From the IMG/VR virus record IMGVR_UViG_3300044971_004086, positions 1-20,905 of that record: a DNA stretch of 20,905 bases; one strand, 5' to 3'. This document shows, piece by piece, positions 7,754 through 20,175 of the stretch (within the stretch, counting starts at the first letter, position 1; every line of letters begins with the position of its first letter). Origin of the DNA: a virus. Below the pieces are notes generated by a model, which worked only from the letters and a program-made list of their open reading frames with translations, was not told the DNA's origin and made no database searches. The translations under genes were made by a program, and so were the position numbers.

Positions 7754-8421
7754 TCAAAAACCTTTTAGTGGGTTGTTTGATTGGTTTGATGTCTAGTGCT
7801 GCACTTGCAACAGAAAGCGAAATCTATATCGAACAAACAGGAGAAGCTCTGACTCTTACAATTACACAACAGAATGGTGCTCTTAACAAGATAAACACCT
7901 CTATCAATCCTGCCATCATTAATGGTGACAACAACACAATCACTGTGATGCAGGATGGAGCAACAAACGTGTTGAATTTTGAGTTGAGAGGAAACACAAA
8001 CATTGTTGATCTAAAGCAAGAAGGTAACTCAAATACAATGGACTTAAAATGCAATGAAGGGGGAGCTTTCAATTGCACAGATGCAAACATCAAGTTCTAT
8101 GACATTGGTGACAACAATACTACTTCTGTTGTAGTGAAGCAAAATCAAATAACTGTTGATGCAACTATCACTGGAGACACGAACACAACAAACCTAACAA
8201 TGAATAGTCAGGGTGGCTCATTGACATTGACAGTGACTGGAAACACAAACACAACATCATTCAATCAATCCGGAGCTCCAGTCGTCCCACATTCTGCTGT
8301 TGTTTCACACACAGGAAACAACGGAACTCTGACGCTTGTTCAATCTGGTAATATTACTAAGACAATGAATGTGACGACAAATGGCAATAATCATACTTCT
8401 ACTATTACTCAGTCTGACTGA
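7750..8421 (+). CDS. Curlin-repeat protein (CsgA/CsgB-like fibre subunit)
   Basis: 223 residues with a Sec signal (cleavage likely after AALA, residue 20). The mature part is almost only Asn, Thr, Ser, Gly, Gln and Val, arranged in about seven units beginning [T/N/I/R]-G-[D/N]-[T/N]-N: GDNNTITVMQDGATN (59-73), GNTNIVDLKQEGNSN (81-95), GDNNTTSVVVKQ (120-131), TGDTNTTNL (141-149), TGNTNTTSFNQSG (163-175), TGNNGTLTLVQSG (188-200) and NGNNHTSTITQSD at the end. The N-x5-Q-x-G-x2-N spacing is that of curlin repeats, which stack into an amyloid beta-solenoid. Two cysteines (C101, C109) break the series and may form a disulfide loop. It is longer than CsgA. CsgG next door should export it. Whether it acts as major fibre or as nucleator is open. 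Confidence 0.8.
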   Translation: MIKNLLVGCLIGLMSSAALATESEIYIEQTGEALTLTITQQNGALNKINTSINPAIINGDNNTITVMQDGATNVLNFELRGNTNIVDLKQEGNSNTMDLKCNEGGAFNCTDANIKFYDIGDNNTTSVVVKQNQITVDATITGDTNTTNLTMNSQGGSLTLTVTGNTNTTSFNQSGAPVVPHSAVVSHTGNNGTLTLVQSGNITKTMNVTTNGNNHTSTITQSD

Positions 8422-9406
8422 AGCAAAGGCCAGTTCTATTGGTGAAATCATCCAACTGACTGGCCCAGCTCAGCTAGACAAAAAATCAGGGTCTTCTGTA
8501 GACGTATCAAAAGGGTCTCAAGTAGAATCGCTAGACACTGTTAGGACAGCTAGAGCAAGAGCCAACATTAAATTCAAAGACGAAACTCAAGTAGCAATTA
8601 CAGAGAACAGCAAGCTTATCATAGACGAATACATCTTTGATCCAAACAAAGGTGTAGGAAAGATGTCTATGAAGATAGCTCTTGGAACAGTTCGATATGC
8701 TTCTGGGGCAATTGCAAAAAACAACAACGAGAATATCAATATTCAGACTCCTGTCGCGACAGTGGGTGTCAGAGGAACATCATTCAGCATGACTGTTGAT
8801 GAGGTTGGCCAAAGTCTTGTGATTCTTCTTCCAAACAATGATGGAACGGTGGGTGAGATTAAAGTAGACACAGATGCAGGACAAGTAATCCTTAACAAAG
8901 CATTCCAATCGACGTTTGTCGCATCAAGTGAAAACAAGCCAGCCTCGCCTGTAATCCTAAACCTCAACGAATCCCAAATTAACAATCTTCTTATAGTTTC
9001 AAAGCCAGAGTCGGTAGATAAAGAAGAAGGTGGCTCACACTTTCTAAGAAACGATTTTCTAGAGTTTACAGAGTTAAACAAGACTGATCTAGACAAAGAA
9101 CTTCTTTTGTTTAATGAATTGGATATTAACAGGTTAGATGTCGATCTTCTTGCTAACGTTCTTGATGAGTTTGATAGTTCATCGGTTGGAAAGGTTGCTG
9201 GGTTCAATGCATCTACACAAATCAACACAATTCTAGAAGGGACAAACATCAAACTTGTGAGAGTGGTTAATGCCACAATGTCACTTAACATTGACAAAGA
9301 CAAGAACTACCAACTACACATAAATCAGGGTCAAGGAGACATCCCAGTTACAATTGGGGATGGTAATTCACCTTATCTGAACAACATAAGGATAATACAA
9401 AAATGA
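8381..9406 (+). CDS. Secreted FecR-domain protein
   Basis: 341 residues. A hydrophobic signal (IIILLLLLSLTEAKA) directs it to the periplasm. Residues 20-140 form a FecR domain: IQLTGPAQLD, SQVESLDTVRTARARANIKF, DETQVAITENSKLIID, IALGTVRYASG and the hallmark TPVATVGVRGTSFSMTV (123-139). There is no cytoplasmic or membrane part, unlike true FecR anti-sigma factors. The C-terminal ~190 residues are acidic, with leucine-rich DxL repeats (about 235-262), and of unknown fold. The start overlaps the curlin gene by 41 bases and the stop overlaps the cyclase start as ATGA. Secreted FecR-domain proteins are often encoded beside CHASE2 cyclases in bacteria, so it is probably the periplasmic partner or ligand of the next gene's sensor. 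Confidence 0.85.
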   Translation: MAIIILLLLLSLTEAKASSIGEIIQLTGPAQLDKKSGSSVDVSKGSQVESLDTVRTARARANIKFKDETQVAITENSKLIIDEYIFDPNKGVGKMSMKIALGTVRYASGAIAKNNNENINIQTPVATVGVRGTSFSMTVDEVGQSLVILLPNNDGTVGEIKVDTDAGQVILNKAFQSTFVASSENKPASPVILNLNESQINNLLIVSKPESVDKEEGGSHFLRNDFLEFTELNKTDLDKELLLFNELDINRLDVDLLANVLDEFDSSSVGKVAGFNASTQINTILEGTNIKLVRVVNATMSLNIDKDKNYQLHINQGQGDIPVTIGDGNSPYLNNIRIIQK

Positions 9407-11475
9407 GTTTCTTCACGTCTTGGAAGATCGTTGCTATTGTTCTACTTGGTCTTGTCGGATTGAGACTTCAGGATGGTTGGTTGGTCGAGACATTAAGACT
9501 AAAGACATTTGATTTCTATCAAATCTCTAAGAATCAAGACAAGAGTGATCAGATTTCAATTGTTGAAATAACGGACGATGACATTGATAATTTTGGCCAA
9601 TGGCCATGGCCTCGCGATAAAGTAGCATCAATTTTGGAAATGATGAAGATGTTCAAACCAGCTGCAATCGTCATGCCAATCATATTTTCGGAACCAGACA
9701 GATTTGGCAAAGACGAAGAACTTGCAGATGCACTAGAAGGAGTCATCATTGCACAAGCGCCATCAAACAAGGCTTCAAAGGTAGAAGGATCGCCAAGAGG
9801 AATTGCTATCGTAGGTCTTGATCCAAACAATTGGCTACAAAGTTTTGTTGGAATAGTACGCCCGCTCAAGATGTTTGAGGACAACGCAGCTGGTGTTGGC
9901 GTGCTTACCGCATCTGGTGAAATAGATGGTGTTGTTAGAAGAATTCCAATGGTTGTAAGAATAGGTGAATTAGACTCGCTTGTATCTCCAAAGATTTATC
10001 CTACACTGTCGCTTGAAGTCATTAGAACACTTGCTGGTGATCGTAGTTATCAAATGAAAGTTGGAATTAATGGTGTAGAATCAGTCAGAATTCCACAATT
10101 TGAAACAATCAATACAGACTCAAATGGTCGCGTTTGGATCAAGTACAACAAGGAGTTTGATAGAAGAACAATATTCCATATGGATGATATTGAAAACAAA
10201 GTAGTCATTCTTACAATTTCTGCAGAAGGATTGGCTACAAATGTACCTACACCATATGGTCTAAAGAATATTGCAGAAGTTCAAGCTGCAATGATTTCCA
10301 CATTAGTCAATGGCGATTCATTGACTAGACTTGATTACGCAGATGCATTGGAACTCGTTACTCTGACGATCATAGGTCTATTGTTCATTGTTCTTGTTCC
10401 AAGATTGATGATTTGGCAAACCATACCTTTTTATGTGGTTTCAGTTGCAGGAATCATTGGATTCTGCTTCTACATGTACGAAATGAATATTCTTTTTGAT
10501 TACTCATTTCCTTTATTTACAATTACTTTAGTCTTCTCATGGCTAGTATTCAATAACTTTGCAAGAGAGTTTAGACTAAAGCAACAGATTAAGAAGCAGT
10601 TTCAATCTTATCTTTCTAAGGAGCTAGTAGAGAAGCTTCAGAAGAATCCAAACTTGCTCAAGCTTGGAGGAGATAGCAGAGAGCTTTCTATTATGTTCAC
10701 TGATGTAAGAGGGTTTACTTCTATCAGCGAGCATTACGGAGACAATGTTCAGGGTCTCACAAACATAATGAATCGATACATGACTGCAATGACAGGAAAG
10801 ATTCTAGACAACTCTGGAACACTTGACAAGTACATTGGTGATGCTCAGATGGCATTCTGGAATGCTCCTTTGGATGACAAGCAGCATGCAAAGAATGCTG
10901 TCAAAACAGCTCTTAGCATGTTGGGAGATCTGGACGACTTTAACAAGAAGATTGCAGAGGAGGGCGTTCCTCCGTTTGGAATGGGCCTTGGAATCAACAC
11001 AGGTACGGTTGTTGTTGGCAACATGGGTAGTGATCAAAGATTCGACTACACGTGCTTAGGAGATGCAGTCAATCTAGCAAGTAGACTAGAAGGCCAGTCA
11101 AAACCTTATGGCGTAAGGATAGTGATTGGTCCTAAGACAGCTGAGTACGTTGCAGACGAGTACTTTATACTTGAACTTGATACAATTGCTGTCAAGGGCA
11201 AGAAGCAAGGTGTGAATATCTATACTGTACTTGGAACAATCAAAGAGATGGAGTTCTTGAACTATGTGCCATTCAGAGTAATGCACAACAATATGCTTGA
11301 TGATTATCGCTCACAAAAGTTTGGAAGCGCAATAATAACGTGTGAAAAATTAAAACGAGCATTCAATGGTGGAATGAAGTCATACTATCAAATGATGGCT
11401 GAAAGATGCGAAGAATACTTAAAGAATCCACCACCAGCTGATTGGGATGGAGTCTATAGAGCTACTTCAAAATGA
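9403..11475 (+). CDS. CHASE2-domain class III adenylate cyclase
   Basis: 690 residues. TM1 (about 8-22), periplasmic CHASE2 sensor (about 25-310, with VEITDDDIDNFGQWPWPR), three membrane helices (317-333, 340-358, 366-384), a linker helix, then a class III cyclase domain (425-605). Catalytic residues are present: metal-binding D434 (FTDVRGFTS) and D480 (DKYIGDAQMAF), adenine-selecting K476 and D548 (RFDYTCLGD), transition-state N557 and R561 (GDAVNLASRLEG). This predicts an active enzyme making cAMP from ATP. The C-terminal tail ends PPPADWDGVYR, as in many bacterial CHASE2 cyclases. The pattern of periplasmic sensor plus cytoplasmic catalysis fits signalling from the upstream FecR protein. 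Substrate assignment to ATP is inference from K476 and D548. Confidence 0.95.
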   Translation: MSFFTSWKIVAIVLLGLVGLRLQDGWLVETLRLKTFDFYQISKNQDKSDQISIVEITDDDIDNFGQWPWPRDKVASILEMMKMFKPAAIVMPIIFSEPDRFGKDEELADALEGVIIAQAPSNKASKVEGSPRGIAIVGLDPNNWLQSFVGIVRPLKMFEDNAAGVGVLTASGEIDGVVRRIPMVVRIGELDSLVSPKIYPTLSLEVIRTLAGDRSYQMKVGINGVESVRIPQFETINTDSNGRVWIKYNKEFDRRTIFHMDDIENKVVILTISAEGLATNVPTPYGLKNIAEVQAAMISTLVNGDSLTRLDYADALELVTLTIIGLLFIVLVPRLMIWQTIPFYVVSVAGIIGFCFYMYEMNILFDYSFPLFTITLVFSWLVFNNFAREFRLKQQIKKQFQSYLSKELVEKLQKNPNLLKLGGDSRELSIMFTDVRGFTSISEHYGDNVQGLTNIMNRYMTAMTGKILDNSGTLDKYIGDAQMAFWNAPLDDKQHAKNAVKTALSMLGDLDDFNKKIAEEGVPPFGMGLGINTGTVVVGNMGSDQRFDYTCLGDAVNLASRLEGQSKPYGVRIVIGPKTAEYVADEYFILELDTIAVKGKKQGVNIYTVLGTIKEMEFLNYVPFRVMHNNMLDDYRSQKFGSAIITCEKLKRAFNGGMKSYYQMMAERCEEYLKNPPPADWDGVYRATSK

Positions 11476-16168: not shown

Positions 16169-16203
16169 AAAAAAATAGCCTGGAGAAGAACTCCAGGCTA
16201 TTT
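16169..16203 (-). terminator. Strong hairpin terminator after the transporter gene
   Basis: An 11-bp perfect stem (ATAGCCTGGAG 16175-16185 with CTCCAGGCTAT 16191-16201), extendable by two A-T pairs, with a 5-base loop. On the minus strand it ends in a run of seven Ts (16176-16170). It is also followed by T-rich sequence on the plus strand, but no plus-strand gene needs it. Confidence 0.9.
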
Positions 16204-16206
16204 ATT
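16199..16206 (-). promoter_or_regulatory. Candidate late promoter AATAAATA embedded in the terminator
   Basis: AATAAATA on the minus strand matches TATAAATA at 7 of 8 positions and overlaps the first arm of the terminator. Initiation 6-7 bases downstream (about 16192-16193) would leave most of the first arm out of the RNA, so the late transcript could not form the terminator and would read the ligase-like gene. Confidence 0.4.
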
Positions 16207-16223: not shown

Positions 16224-16775
16224 TTATTCTGCTTTAGGCAGCTTATTCTCAATCAACTTGAGGAAGAGAACTGCAAGTGCAATCATGTACGTCTTTGCAA
16301 TCAGCTGACCAACGATATACTTCTGGCTTCCAAATGCAATCTGGAGGAACAGGAAGCTGTCAACTGCCATACCAACAAGGCTTGAACCAATAGCTGCAAC
16401 AATTAGACCCTTCTTGATGAGAGGCGCATAGACAGCCGTGTCGATCAATTCTGCAACTAGAAAAGCGACAACTGAAGCGACGACAAGAGCAGGAGGAGAA
16501 AACATCCAACTAAGAACAGCACCGATGCAGATAGCGTAGATGCTGTACGTAAGACCCAAATAACGATGAGTCAAATCTCGAAGAACGAACGCAAGGCCAG
16601 CTGCAAGAACCCCACTGGCAGTGTCATAACCAAAACCAACAGGAATAAGGCAAGGTCCATTAGGAATGCAGACAGTCCCAATGTTAGACACTAGATAGTT
16701 ACTAAGAGGCACCATACCACAGAAAAGGATGAAAGAGATCCATCCAAGGTTTTTGCTATTAAGTTCAAAAGTCAT
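16224..16775 (-). CDS. Queuosine-precursor-type transporter (YhhQ/VUT family)
   Basis: 183 residues, almost entirely membrane-embedded, with about six hydrophobic segments starting at LGWISFILFCGMVPLSNYLV. Family-like features are SNYLVSN early, DTASGVLAAGLAFVLRDLTHRYLG in the second and third segments (RD.TH pattern), and LVAELIDTAVYAPL in the middle. This family (COG1738/YhhQ) takes up 7-deazaguanine precursors such as preQ0/preQ1; phages with deazaguanine-modified DNA can carry related transporters. No other queuosine or dPreQ0 genes lie in this window. AAGGAG lies 6 bases before the ATG. It ends a unit closed by the strong terminator at 16169-16203. Another small-molecule transporter of the VUT group is the alternative. 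Confidence 0.85.
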   Translation of the reverse strand: MTFELNSKNLGWISFILFCGMVPLSNYLVSNIGTVCIPNGPCLIPVGFGYDTASGVLAAGLAFVLRDLTHRYLGLTYSIYAICIGAVLSWMFSPPALVVASVVAFLVAELIDTAVYAPLIKKGLIVAAIGSSLVGMAVDSFLFLQIAFGSQKYIVGQLIAKTYMIALAVLFLKLIENKLPKAE

Positions 16776-17380: not shown

Positions 17381-17926
17381 TTATTTATTTACCAGCCTAG
17401 TTTCAATCGTACGCCAATCAGTGATTTTCAACACATTCTCGACGTATACATCGCGTTTACCTGGATAATCATAGATGAATGCATGCTCCCAAAGATCCCA
17501 GATTCCAACTATAGAATTGAACAGAGATTCTGTATATTCGTGATTTTTAATAAGTGTGAGAGCAGGTTTGTTGTCTTGATTGATTAGAACAATCCATCCA
17601 TTACCCTGAAGAGCTTTAGATGTTTCTTTGATTTCTTTCAAGAAATGATTCCATGAATCGTAAGACTCTCCAATCCAATCTACAAAGAATGGAGATGGAT
17701 CCACACGCTTGTCTGTTAGATTCGCCCACCAAAGATTGTGTAATCTGATTCCGTGTTCTTGGAATTCATCCCCTGTTTCAGCAAACTTTTTAGAATAGTT
17801 CTTTGTCAAAATATTGTAATGAACATCGACTGTCTGCCTGCTCATTTTAGGAGCCAAAGCATCGATGTCATATTTAAGATCAAGAACAGGAATCGTCTTT
17901 GTAGAGAACTGATTGAATGCCTTCAT
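17381..17926 (-). CDS. Fe/Mn-type superoxide dismutase
   Basis: 181 residues, close to the usual 190-200. All four metal ligands of the Fe/Mn SOD family can be placed: H36 (VDVHYNIL), H63 (IRLHNLWWANL), D144 and H148 (GIWDLWEHAF). Other family blocks are LKYDIDALAPKMSRQTVDVH, ALQGNGWIVLI and a C-terminal YDYPGKRDVYVENVL. The active-site Tyr is kept (Y44), but the position of the gateway His of bacterial enzymes (four residues after the first ligand) is Leu40. It would convert superoxide to peroxide and oxygen, perhaps protecting replication or cell integrity during infection. MKAFNQF at the start resembles the other tags but lacks the LxE site. Good AAAGGA SD. It sits between the metallopeptidase and the 16786 gene. 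Confidence 0.9.
   Translation of the reverse strand: MKAFNQFSTKTIPVLDLKYDIDALAPKMSRQTVDVHYNILTKNYSKKFAETGDEFQEHGIRLHNLWWANLTDKRVDPSPFFVDWIGESYDSWNHFLKEIKETSKALQGNGWIVLINQDNKPALTLIKNHEYTESLFNSIVGIWDLWEHAFIYDYPGKRDVYVENVLKITDWRTIETRLVNK
17382..17389 (-). promoter_or_regulatory. Late-promoter-like AATAAATA right before an ATG
   Basis: Matches TATAAATA at 7 of 8 positions and overlaps the SOD stop codon. With usual late-promoter geometry the start would fall at or next to the A of the ATG at 17376, which would make the mRNA leaderless. It may equally be a chance AT-rich match. Confidence 0.3.
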
Positions 17927-17953: not shown

Positions 17954-18151
17954 TTAAAGTCTATCATATTTCTTCCTCAACTCATAGTAGACTTTGTACC
18001 AGTAATCAACAGCCCACTTGCTTCTACCAAAATGCAGGGAAGAAAAATATGCAAATTTAGAGAAATTGATTCTATTCGTTATCGTATCCGAGTTCGCTGA
18101 ATAGGTTGTATTTTTTGACGAATCTGTAGAGAAGACCGTCTTCTTTTCCAT
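17954..18151 (-). CDS. Possible small ORF with no convincing start
   Basis: The reading frame between the metallopeptidase and SOD genes encodes a protein-like C-terminus (about RINFSKFAYFSSLHFGRSK, then WAVDYWYKVYYELRKKYDRL) outside any other gene. The only ATGs in frame lie inside the metallopeptidase gene (18151 and 18250), where the frame looks like a shadow, and neither has a Shine-Dalgarno. It could be a small gene with a rare start, a remnant, or a frameshifted extension of the metallopeptidase. The coordinates given use the ATG at 18151. Confidence 0.25.
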   Translation of the reverse strand: MEKKTVFSTDSSKNTTYSANSDTITNRINFSKFAYFSSLHFGRSKWAVDYWYKVYYELRKKYDRL

Positions 18152-18569
18152 GGGCTTCAATTTCCCACGGAAGATCCCAGTATTCATCGTTCTCAAACAG
18201 ACTCTTAAACTTTGTGTTCTTCCAGAGAACATATTTTTCATTTCGCCCAAACCTCTCCTTCAATTCACCCTTAGCCATCTGTTTTATATGTACAAACTCA
18301 TGAGCCAAAGACAGGAGAATTCTTTCATATGATTGTTGCTTGTCGCTGTCAATGTCTCGTCTTATTACAATGGAAAACTCTCTTGGTTTCACATAGTCAT
18401 CTTCCCACGTCGTAAGACCGTCTGCCCCAATTCCATCAGAAAGCTCTATTGTTACTTCTAGATTCTTTGAAAGGTTTTTGTGAAGAAGTTTTGATGCATA
18501 AAATTGAGATGCAAGCTTTATGAGCTGGCATAGCTTTTGATCTCTAGTGTTTATAACATGAAGAATCAA
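18072..18569 (-). CDS. Zincin metallopeptidase-like protein (HExxH)
   Basis: 165 residues from a TTG at 18569 with GAGGTG 4 bases upstream. The helix ILLSLAHEFVHIKQMAKGEL contains the zinc motif H90-E91-x-x-H94, and a third ligand is likely E136 or E138 in WEIEAHGKE, an order seen in SprT-like and other short zincins. The N-terminal half is alpha/beta with a strand FSIVIRRDID before the helix. No signal peptide, so it acts in the cytoplasm or the virion. Substrate unknown; anti-host proteolysis or protein processing are options. It starts a unit that continues through SOD to the transporter, read from the candidate late promoter at 18598-18605. Confidence 0.75.
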   Translation of the reverse strand: MILHVINTRDQKLCQLIKLASQFYASKLLHKNLSKNLEVTIELSDGIGADGLTTWEDDYVKPREFSIVIRRDIDSDKQQSYERILLSLAHEFVHIKQMAKGELKERFGRNEKYVLWKNTKFKSLFENDEYWDLPWEIEAHGKEDGLLYRFVKKYNLFSELGYDNE

Positions 18570-18597: not shown

Positions 18598-18605
18598 TAT
18601 TTAGT
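18598..18605 (-). promoter_or_regulatory. Candidate late promoter ACTAAATA
   Basis: Minus-strand ACTAAATA, 6 of 8 matches to TATAAATA, identical to the site at 14341-14348. The start near 18591 gives a 22-base leader carrying the GAGGTG of the metallopeptidase gene. It lies just after the terminator at 18622-18658. Confidence 0.4.
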
Positions 18606-18621
18606 GAACCCAGATCAAGAC

Positions 18622-18658
18622 AAAAAAAAGAGGGACAGGTTTGACCCTATCCCTCTTT
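18622..18658 (-). terminator. Rho-independent terminator after the candidate ncRNA
   Basis: A 13-bp stem (18627-18639 with 18646-18658) containing one pair that is G-U on the minus-strand RNA and a mismatch on the plus strand, so it is oriented for the minus strand. The loop has 6 bases. The minus strand continues into eight Ts (18629-18622). It closes the helicase/ncRNA transcript. Confidence 0.9.
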
Positions 18659-18760
18659 ATGGATGTGCAGACAGGAGGAACCCCACCTTGTTTTAAACCC
18701 TGTCAATTCCTAGCTTACGCCACTTGCCTCTTGTGCTGCAGACACAAATACACATCCTAG
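18659..18760 (-). ncRNA. Candidate structured small RNA, unknown family
   Basis: Between helicase stop and terminator there is no ORF, but the minus-strand RNA can fold. The outer stem GGATGTG/CACATCC (18751-18757 with 18661-18667) closes about 83 bases. Inside it are TTGTG/CACAA (18743-18747 with 18731-18735), GACAGG/CCTGTC (18699-18704 with 18670-18675) and a possible inner AAGG/CCTT-type helix next to GTGGGGTTCC. The 5' stem starts within a few bases of the start predicted from the late promoter at 18766-18773, and the terminator follows 2 bases after the 3' stem. tRNA and tmRNA do not fit (no T-arm or anticodon arm spacing). Including its terminator, the transcript would be about 135 nt. 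Confidence 0.45.
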
Positions 18761-18765
18761 TCACA

Positions 18766-18773
18766 TATTTATG
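18766..18773 (-). promoter_or_regulatory. Candidate late promoter CATAAATA of the small RNA
   Basis: CATAAATA, 7 of 8 matches to TATAAATA and the same octamer as the curli-operon promoter. It lies one base after the helicase stop codon and predicts a start at about 18759-18760. Confidence 0.5.
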
Positions 18774-18774
18774 T

Positions 18775-20175
18775 TTATCGAAAGTCGTCAAACAGGTTTT
18801 TTAGCGATTTTGGACCAGAAATTTCCTTGCCTACCTGTGTTTTATCAAACGTAGGTGTGTCGTCTAGGATGTCTTCTTGTGCTGATTGTTCTACATCGTA
18901 CAGCTTCATTTTTGCCCTATCAACACCAATGACAAACCTCTTGTAAAGGCCAGGATCATTGTATCTGTTCTTGAGCTGCTTGACCATGATCTGATTCAGC
19001 TGTTCTAGCTCCTCAGTAGAGATCAATGCAATCATCAGGTCTGCAGTGGCTGGTAGACCAAAGCTCTCAGAAACATCCTCAAGGCCAACGTCTGAGTTAG
19101 TGTAGCCAGAGCGAGTCGTCTGTGTTGCTGAGATCAGCGGAACGTCAAACTCGACAGCAAGACCTCTCAGTTCCTCTGCAATAGCCTTGACGTACGTATA
19201 TGAGTTGATATTTGAACCACTTTTTAACCTAGACGACAAACAAATATTCAAGTAATCAACATATATAATGTCGGGTACGAAGTTCCTCTTAATCTTGAGT
19301 TCGTTCAGAAGATGTCTAAAGTGTCCAGAGCCAGCACACGCAGTTGGATACTCTTTAATAATCAGCTTACCCTTCGTCTTATCGTTCACCCTTGCAATCT
19401 TCTTCTCATATACTTCCTTAGGAAGCATAGTGAGCTCGTCGACTGTTACATTGAGAAGGTTGGCATCAATGCGCTCTGCAATACGTTTTTCCGCCATTTC
19501 CATAGTGATATAAAGTACGTTGAGACCCTGCATGAGATTGCCGGCGGCGCAGTGACACATGAAAAGAGATTTGCCGACACCAGTTCCAGCCATAATGATG
19601 TTAAGCGTCTTGTTGGGTAGTCCACCCTTTGTGATCTTGTTCATATAGTCCAGATCAAACGAGATCCTCTTCTCCTTGGTATGATAGAAGTCAAAACGCT
19701 CCTCATAGTCTTGGAGGAAGTCGTGACCAATATGTGCATCAAATGACACTGCAAGAGCGTCAGAAAGGATCTTTGGAATCGATCCTGTTCCAACGTCTGC
19801 AACCTTCTTGTCCAGGATCTTGATCGATGACATGATCGCATTGTAGATCGCCTTGTCCTGGCAGAACTTCTCCGTCTGATCCAACAACCAATCAAGGTTC
19901 GTCGATGGGTCAATTGACAACGTATCAATCAACTCCATAACGTTCTTGAACTGATCCTCATTGACAGTCGTCAAGTTGTTAGCTTCTACAACAAGAGCCT
20001 CCTTCGTAGGAAACGCATTAAACTTCTTGATGTAGTTGTCGACTATCTCATAGATGATCTTGTCCGTGCCATCCTTGAAGTATTCGTCCTTCAAGAATGG
20101 CAGGACCTTTCTTCCAAACTCCTCGTTGTAGACGAGGTGAGAAAGAATCAAATGTTCAATCACTATCACCCCCAT
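18775..20175 (-). CDS. 41: Replicative DNA helicase (T4 gp41/DnaB-like)
   Basis: 466 residues from the ATG at 20175; a GTG at 20163 after GGGGGTGA is a serious alternative, and the frame reaching further up only overlaps uvsX. N-terminal domain [20 protein letters not shown] (5-25) resembles gp41. The RecA-like motor domain has Walker [14 protein letters not shown] (194-206), [17 protein letters not shown] (220-236) with the catalytic Glu motif, Walker [11 protein letters not shown] (302-311) and the sensor ATQTTR (350-355). The enzyme forms a hexamer that unwinds the fork on the lagging strand with the phage primase. The start overlaps the uvsX 3' end, an order shared with T4-like phages. 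The C-terminus is acidic, as expected for partner binding. Confidence 0.9.

Follow-up and report, generated by a model that had tools for sequence, protein, structure and literature searches.

The window, that is, the whole stretch of DNA that we analyzed, is a virus record of 20.9 kb (20,905 nt) from a T4-like phage, and its last genes lie on the minus strand: uvsX, a gp41-type helicase (PHROGs), and then a gene for a small protein bearing an HExxH motif. Behind the helicase stop, an earlier note on this DNA had placed a late promoter, a foldable element, and a terminator in that order, and all three are indeed present there on the minus strand. The features of this interval are as follows.

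18775-20163, minus strand: gp41-type DnaB-like replicative helicase (PHROG 19, E 2e-126)
18777-18775, minus strand: TAA stop codon of gp41, directly ahead of the late promoter
18766-18773, minus strand: T4-type late promoter box CATAAATA (from its sequence and its recurrence in the family)
18757-18661, minus strand: folded element of ~97 nt, between box and terminator
18751-18757, minus strand: 5' strand of P1, GGAUGUG, located where the transcript is predicted to begin; pairs with 18667-18661
18731-18747, minus strand: P2 hairpin UUGUG-UCUGCAG-CACAA (covariation in the 79-sequence alignment)
18723-18730, minus strand: conserved junction strand GAGGCAAG (GNGGCAMG in the family; alignments A1 and A2)
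18711-18722, minus strand: P3 hairpin UGGC-GUAA-GCUA, short and variable across the family (folding)
18706-18710, minus strand: conserved junction strand GGAAU (parsed stretches)
18699-18704, minus strand: 5' strand of P4, GACAGG; pairs with 18675-18670
18689-18698, minus strand: 5' bulge between P4 and P5, with an extra hairpin in some members (member lengths)
18676-18688, minus strand: P5 (AGG/CCU), closing the loop UGGGGUU at 18685-18679 (covariation)
18670-18675, minus strand: 3' strand of P4, CCUGUC (covariation)
18661-18667, minus strand: 3' strand of P1, CACAUCC (79-sequence alignment)
18622-18658, minus strand: intrinsic terminator, a 13-bp stem (18658-18627) with a U tract (terminator scan)
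18598-18604, minus strand: another late-type box, CTAAATA, belonging to the gene after the terminator (read from the sequence)
18072-18569, minus strand: next gene, a small protein with HEFVH (HExxH motif)

Transcription behind the box CATAAATA would be expected to start at about 18760 on the minus strand. The succession P1-UA-P2-P3-P4-P1' is cloverleaf-like in layout only, and ARAGORN found no tRNA or tmRNA gene in the window, in agreement with the earlier view that the element is neither. The gene behind the terminator had been called a metallopeptidase; what stands of this assignment is the visible HEFVH motif, whereas Pfam returned nothing for the protein at 0.001 and its PHROG matches were confined to families without a known function.

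Several other features of the window deserve mention. A 690-aa protein with CHASE2 and adenylate/guanylate cyclase domains (9403-11475, plus strand) and an adjoining FecR-domain protein (8381-9406, plus strand; both Pfam) are encoded on the strand opposite to that of the T4-like genes, and both have strong PHROG matches of unknown function. It is unusual for a phage to encode a nucleotide cyclase equipped with a sensor domain. On the minus strand, Pfam also recognized an iron/manganese superoxide dismutase-like protein (17381-17926) and a membrane protein of the Vut_1 family (16224-16775), which includes queuosine-precursor transporters. A sigma-70 consensus promoter, TTGACA-16-TATAAT, with 12/12 matching positions, lies at 6505-6478 (minus strand) near a switch in gene direction, and a strong 13-bp stem, listed on the plus strand at 16173-16203, overlaps a minus-strand ATAAATA box at 16199-16205.

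Taken by itself, the window makes a thin case for an RNA gene. ATAAATA occurs five times in it against 2.4 expected, a count so near expectation that the late box alone is poor evidence. The whole predicted transcript folds with a z of -5.8 relative to shuffles, mostly because of the terminator; without it, the element has a z of -1.9, with 9 of 200 shuffles folding equally well. Free folding of seven members of the family described below gave z values from +0.4 to -2.1, the free fold of one of them (L388) differing from the consensus fold, and we therefore rejected folding energy as evidence. Both the box count and the z of -1.9 would suit the view that an AT-rich box, a foldable spacer, and the terminator of gp41 have come together by chance. 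However, box, element, and terminator recur together in related contigs with strong compensatory changes, and this covariation already refutes the chance reading, whose probability we put at practically nil. The comparative evidence is, in our judgment, decisive.

With gp41 as bait, we retrieved 80 viral loci, and a simple profile built on the element picked up relatives in the corresponding position, after gp41. A covariance model, R1, was built from 35 sequences. Of 81 sources, among them the window, 17 scored at least 42 bits with it, and the next one 15. Four pattern scans of viral contigs then brought the collection to at least 138 distinct member cores. R1 scores were bimodal in a set of 95 loci (54 at 46 bits or more, the remainder at 26 or less); 54 of the 55 loci of another set reached at least 47 bits, and 69 of the 77 of a further set at least 42, with L388 and L397 at 29. 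By construction, P4 is paired at 6/6 positions and P5 at 3/3 in every listed member, and the loop begins with UGG; four loci (L126, L132, L389, and L168) as well as second places in L184, L414, and L418 were removed by hand from 145 parsed cores. Two alignments were used, namely A1 (35 sequences), made from hits that had passed a P4 pairing filter and been cut to the best P1 stem, and A2 (79 sequences), which was fitted to the model.

All listed members have a common architecture, a four-helix junction in which P1 (at least 7 bp), P2, the strand GNGGCAMG, P3, the strand GGAAU, P4 (6 bp), a bulge, and P5 (3 bp) with the loop UGGGGUU follow one another, while on the 3' side P4' leads straight into P1'. 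In the 79-sequence alignment, all 22 pairs changed on both sides, and 86.8% of cells were paired as compared with 61.0% in shuffles and 29-46% (maximum 45.7%) in slid controls. Changes on both sides were found at 7/7 pairs of P1 (93.9% of cells paired), 6/6 pairs of P2 (76.4%), and 3/3 modelled pairs of P3, in which only 64.0% of cells were paired; for P4 the value was 100% in this model-fitted alignment. A MAFFT alignment of 35 sequences gave a weaker signal of the same kind (78.3% vs 61.4%), and its unsupervised consensus fold recovered P4 only. Compensatory changes, which the earlier note had named as the check to be made, are also abundant in 105 distinct stretches chosen by three motifs without any pairing filter: P4 had 6/6 pairs in 90 of them and at most 3/6 in the other 15, four of which (L173, L181, L190, and L221) are members misanchored by the pattern, with R1 scores of 63-78 bits, and the outer pair of P5 was Watson-Crick in 90/90 (AU 40, CG 35, UA 13, and GC 2). 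We regard the covariation of the predicted fold as established, and the G-U pairs in P4 favor an RNA over a DNA hairpin. It is thus almost certain, as far as comparison of relatives can tell, that the locus is a structured RNA gene.

The unpaired parts of the junction are conserved as well, with GGAAUA or GGAAUU in 135 of the 145 parsed stretches, seven of the 145 being chance matches. The 5' bulge between P4 and P5 varies from 4 to 17 nt and measures 13-17 nt in 30 of the 138 listed members. The invariant GGAA and UUCC prompted us to consider a GGAA:UUCC pseudoknot, which we rejected, as L388 and L416 keep GGAA and change UUCC with compensation inside P5.

The element travels with its own transcription signals. 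Of the 129 candidates with full flanks, 128 have a late-type box in the 100 nt preceding the GGC motif, as compared with 3 of 579 control places drawn from the same loci, and the lone candidate lacking one (L168) is a chance match. These upstream boxes read TATAAATA in 91 cases, CTAAATA in 30, and otherwise in seven, and they end 34-64 nt before the GGC motif, so that the expected start lies at or slightly before P1. A terminator-like stem stands behind 117/129 flanked candidates versus 2/579 control places. The motif spacing of the members is out of step with a reading frame, and a short ATG frame of at least 20 codons occurs in 31/133 listed members. Since promoter and terminator accompany the RNA, and since its strand relative to gp41 flips in one clade, it forms its own transcription unit, and the predicted RNA is a gene of its own rather than a leader or a 3' UTR.

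Attenuators nevertheless also consist of a fold with a terminator behind it, and the RNA might act on the downstream gene as its leader or as a riboswitch-like attenuator. The downstream genes, however, form many groups with no relation to one another, in 22/129 cases gp41 is found on the other side and on the opposite strand, and a late box is often found behind the RNA as well, serving the following gene (76/133 listed members; 18604-18598 in the window). An attenuator thus has only a very slim chance of being the right explanation. The diversity of the downstream genes and the 22/129 members head-on to gp41 agree with the earlier statement that no riboswitch is recognizable. The companion argument, that the element cannot be a leader because it ends in its own terminator, holds for most members (117/129) but not for the 12/129 in which the rule we applied found no terminator. 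The central proposal of the earlier note, a dedicated, free-standing late small RNA, gains support from the covariation and the accompanying promoter and terminator, although at the level of sequence.

The 3' end of gp41 adjoins the RNA in 129 of the 138 listed members and lies outside the fetched stretch in the other nine. In 107 members gp41 is upstream on the same strand, and in 22 it is downstream on the opposite strand (convergent); its 3' end faces the RNA in either orientation. L096, L097, L144, and their relatives form a clade in which the RNA lies on the strand opposite to gp41 and is aimed at the gp41 3' end, with an additional hairpin inside its P4-P5 bulge. The gp41 proteins of the members are as little as ~53% identical. 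On a quick, unrooted FastTree phylogeny of 137 gp41 proteins, the presence of the RNA required four changes, as compared with at least 31 in 50 shuffles, and its orientation a single change. The RNA was present in 17 and absent from 40 of the gp41-anchored loci that allowed a judgment, and each of 14 long records held one R1 match above 46 bits (14/14).

One copy per long record and a constant site at the 3' end of gp41, whatever the orientation, could also be expected of a cis-acting genome element beside the helicase gene, such as an RNA primer or R-loop for replication or a mark for packaging. However, neither the terminator right behind the fold (117/129) nor the showing of one invariant loop would be needed by a primer, and vertical inheritance, with its four presence changes on the gp41 tree, suffices to account for the fixed site. 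We consider such an element quite improbable.

How far the family extends was examined with the same model. In 19 whole named-phage records, out of the ~2,900 in which gp41 has a relative, R1 found no credible match (T4, HTVC008M, S-PM2, phiM12, and Melnitz-1 included), although distant similarity would escape this search; the best score, 16.9 bits, fell inside MobD.2a of T4. Likewise, blastn of four elements against 50,697 named-phage records gave no match. One pattern run over 84,980 cellular species produced 57 hits versus ~56 expected by chance according to our own arithmetic, and the best R1 score among these cellular hits was 22.6 bits, while members score at least 29 and mostly above 42. 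A cyanophage origin was considered and rejected, the psbA family (PF00124) being present in 0/14 long member records, all of which are fragments.

An Rfam/Infernal search, suggested by the earlier note, found no Rfam 15 family at the gathering threshold in the window and 20 member loci (124 kb), and a permissive search with two members gave chance-level matches only. The open-licence literature on noncoding, structured, and small RNAs of T4-like phages and cyanophages yielded no description of this RNA. There are several partial likenesses, for which we rely on portions of the cited sources. Like RNAC and RNAD of T4, whose role is described as unknown (PMC3014915), it would be a small RNA of a T4-type phage, but those two sit in the T4 tRNA region. 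The manA, wcaG, PhotoRC-II, and glnA RNAs are likewise conserved structured RNAs of marine T4-like phages; in the excerpts that we draw on (PMC2864571, PMC9964418), they are reported as leaders or cis-regulatory elements and have Rfam models, whereas the present RNA is free-standing and matches none of them. The abiF RNA (RF03085) of cyanophage S-CREM1 is another small RNA that has been reported from the genome of a T4-like cyanophage (PMC9964418), but its Rfam model has no match here. Phage Melnitz, a marine T4-like phage, has a structured RNA in its two-piece tmRNA (PMC9004378, in part); in contrast, the window has neither tmRNA nor tRNA, and R1 scores at most 14.6 bits in the Melnitz-1 record. 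We regard the candidate RNA family as categorically new, a term that covers the family only and not its mode of action.

A conspicuous conserved part is the loop. Of the 138 listed members, 136 have exactly UGGGGUU there and two (L343 and L395) an 8-nt loop, but this count overstates its invariance because most members were fetched by patterns containing the loop. A first loop-free pattern retrieved 48 distinct stretches, comprising 41 with the exact 11-mer GGUGGGGUUCC, one variant (L343), one that is cut off (L337), and five non-members, which gives the exact 11-mer in 41 of 42 readable members. A second one retrieved at least 77 stretches; among the matches listed, 59 were exact, and the 18 others comprised four members (L343, L388, L395, and L416), two that are cut off (L337 and L428), and 12 non-members. 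In two members P5 is replaced with compensation (CAC/GUG in L388 and CCG/CGG in L416) while the loop is unchanged, and a structural stem can thus be separated from a functional loop. E. coli tRNA-Tyr begins with exactly this 11-mer (PMC7695249). We hold the identity to be coincidental, since the bases form an acceptor strand there and a hairpin with a varying stem here.

A short, near-invariant unpaired loop on a covarying stem, together with a U-tailed terminator, is typical of base-pairing small RNAs, and UGGGGUU could serve as a seed that pairs with an RNA of the host or of the phage itself. Conceivable targets include mRNA leaders and the 16S rRNA 3' end, whose ACCUC can pair with GGGGU using one G-U. 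However, near 915 phage gene starts, which cover phage genes only, the loop complement AACCCCA had no occurrence and AACCCC had two, as compared with a permutation mean of 2.5, and was thus not enriched. Moreover, a seed has no need of invariant junction strands remote from it, and the match to the anti-Shine-Dalgarno sequence is imperfect even though a perfect GAGGU would be a change of one base away. A seed-type small RNA therefore seems unlikely.

We suggest instead that, in a large lineage of uncultured T4-like phages, the locus encodes a structured, non-coding RNA that stands on its own and acts in trans. A single copy, its own transcription signals, a compact fold, and the kept loop and junction make this the best explanation as a whole, and we give it a probability of roughly 0.6; its weak points are P3, at 64% paired, and the folding z of +0.4 to -2.1. 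We infer that late in infection a gp55-type late RNA polymerase would produce a transcript of ~135 nt. The coaxial P1-P4-P5 stack and the junction (GNGGCAMG and GGAAU) would form a rigid scaffold that presents UGGGGUU to a conserved partner in trans, and the likely effect might be that the partner is sequestered or redirected late in infection. Such a display of the loop to a partner we consider somewhat probable. As to the partner, we favor a protein or ribonucleoprotein over an mRNA, since conservation extends beyond the loop to unpaired junction bases and the complement of the loop shows no enrichment at the starts of phage genes.

A further idea concerns the ribosome. In one E. coli rRNA operon, the sole hairpin with a 3-bp stem and a 7-nt loop starting with UGGGG is UGGGGCG at 2249-2255, closed by GAC/GUC, which we take to be helix 80 (the P loop) of 23S rRNA. 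Helix 80 holds the CCA end of tRNA. Its geometry of 3 bp and 7 nt is the same, and the loops are identical at 5/7 positions, a match of a size that lies within chance (~0.2-0.6 expected by our own estimate from some 250 candidate hairpins), the comparison covering this one hairpin of domain V. It is tempting, though very much a long shot, to see in the RNA a mimic of the ribosomal P loop whose UGGGGUU hairpin imitates helix 80. If so, it might capture tRNA 3' ends, or a factor acting on them, late in infection, and thereby steer translation or protect tRNAs against CCA-modifying defence enzymes of the host.

In the portion of a review of post-transcriptional control in T4 on which we draw, no small trans-acting regulatory RNA from T4 is described as functionally characterized, and relatives are hoped to offer candidates (PMC3014915); the RNA described here would be a candidate of that kind. 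Its family has been inherited with the replicative helicase across a broad lineage, with a fold backed by covariation, and its invariant loop and junction name the exact bases to mutate. The preserved shape and exposed loop across a large phage lineage suggest that this RNA has an important job.
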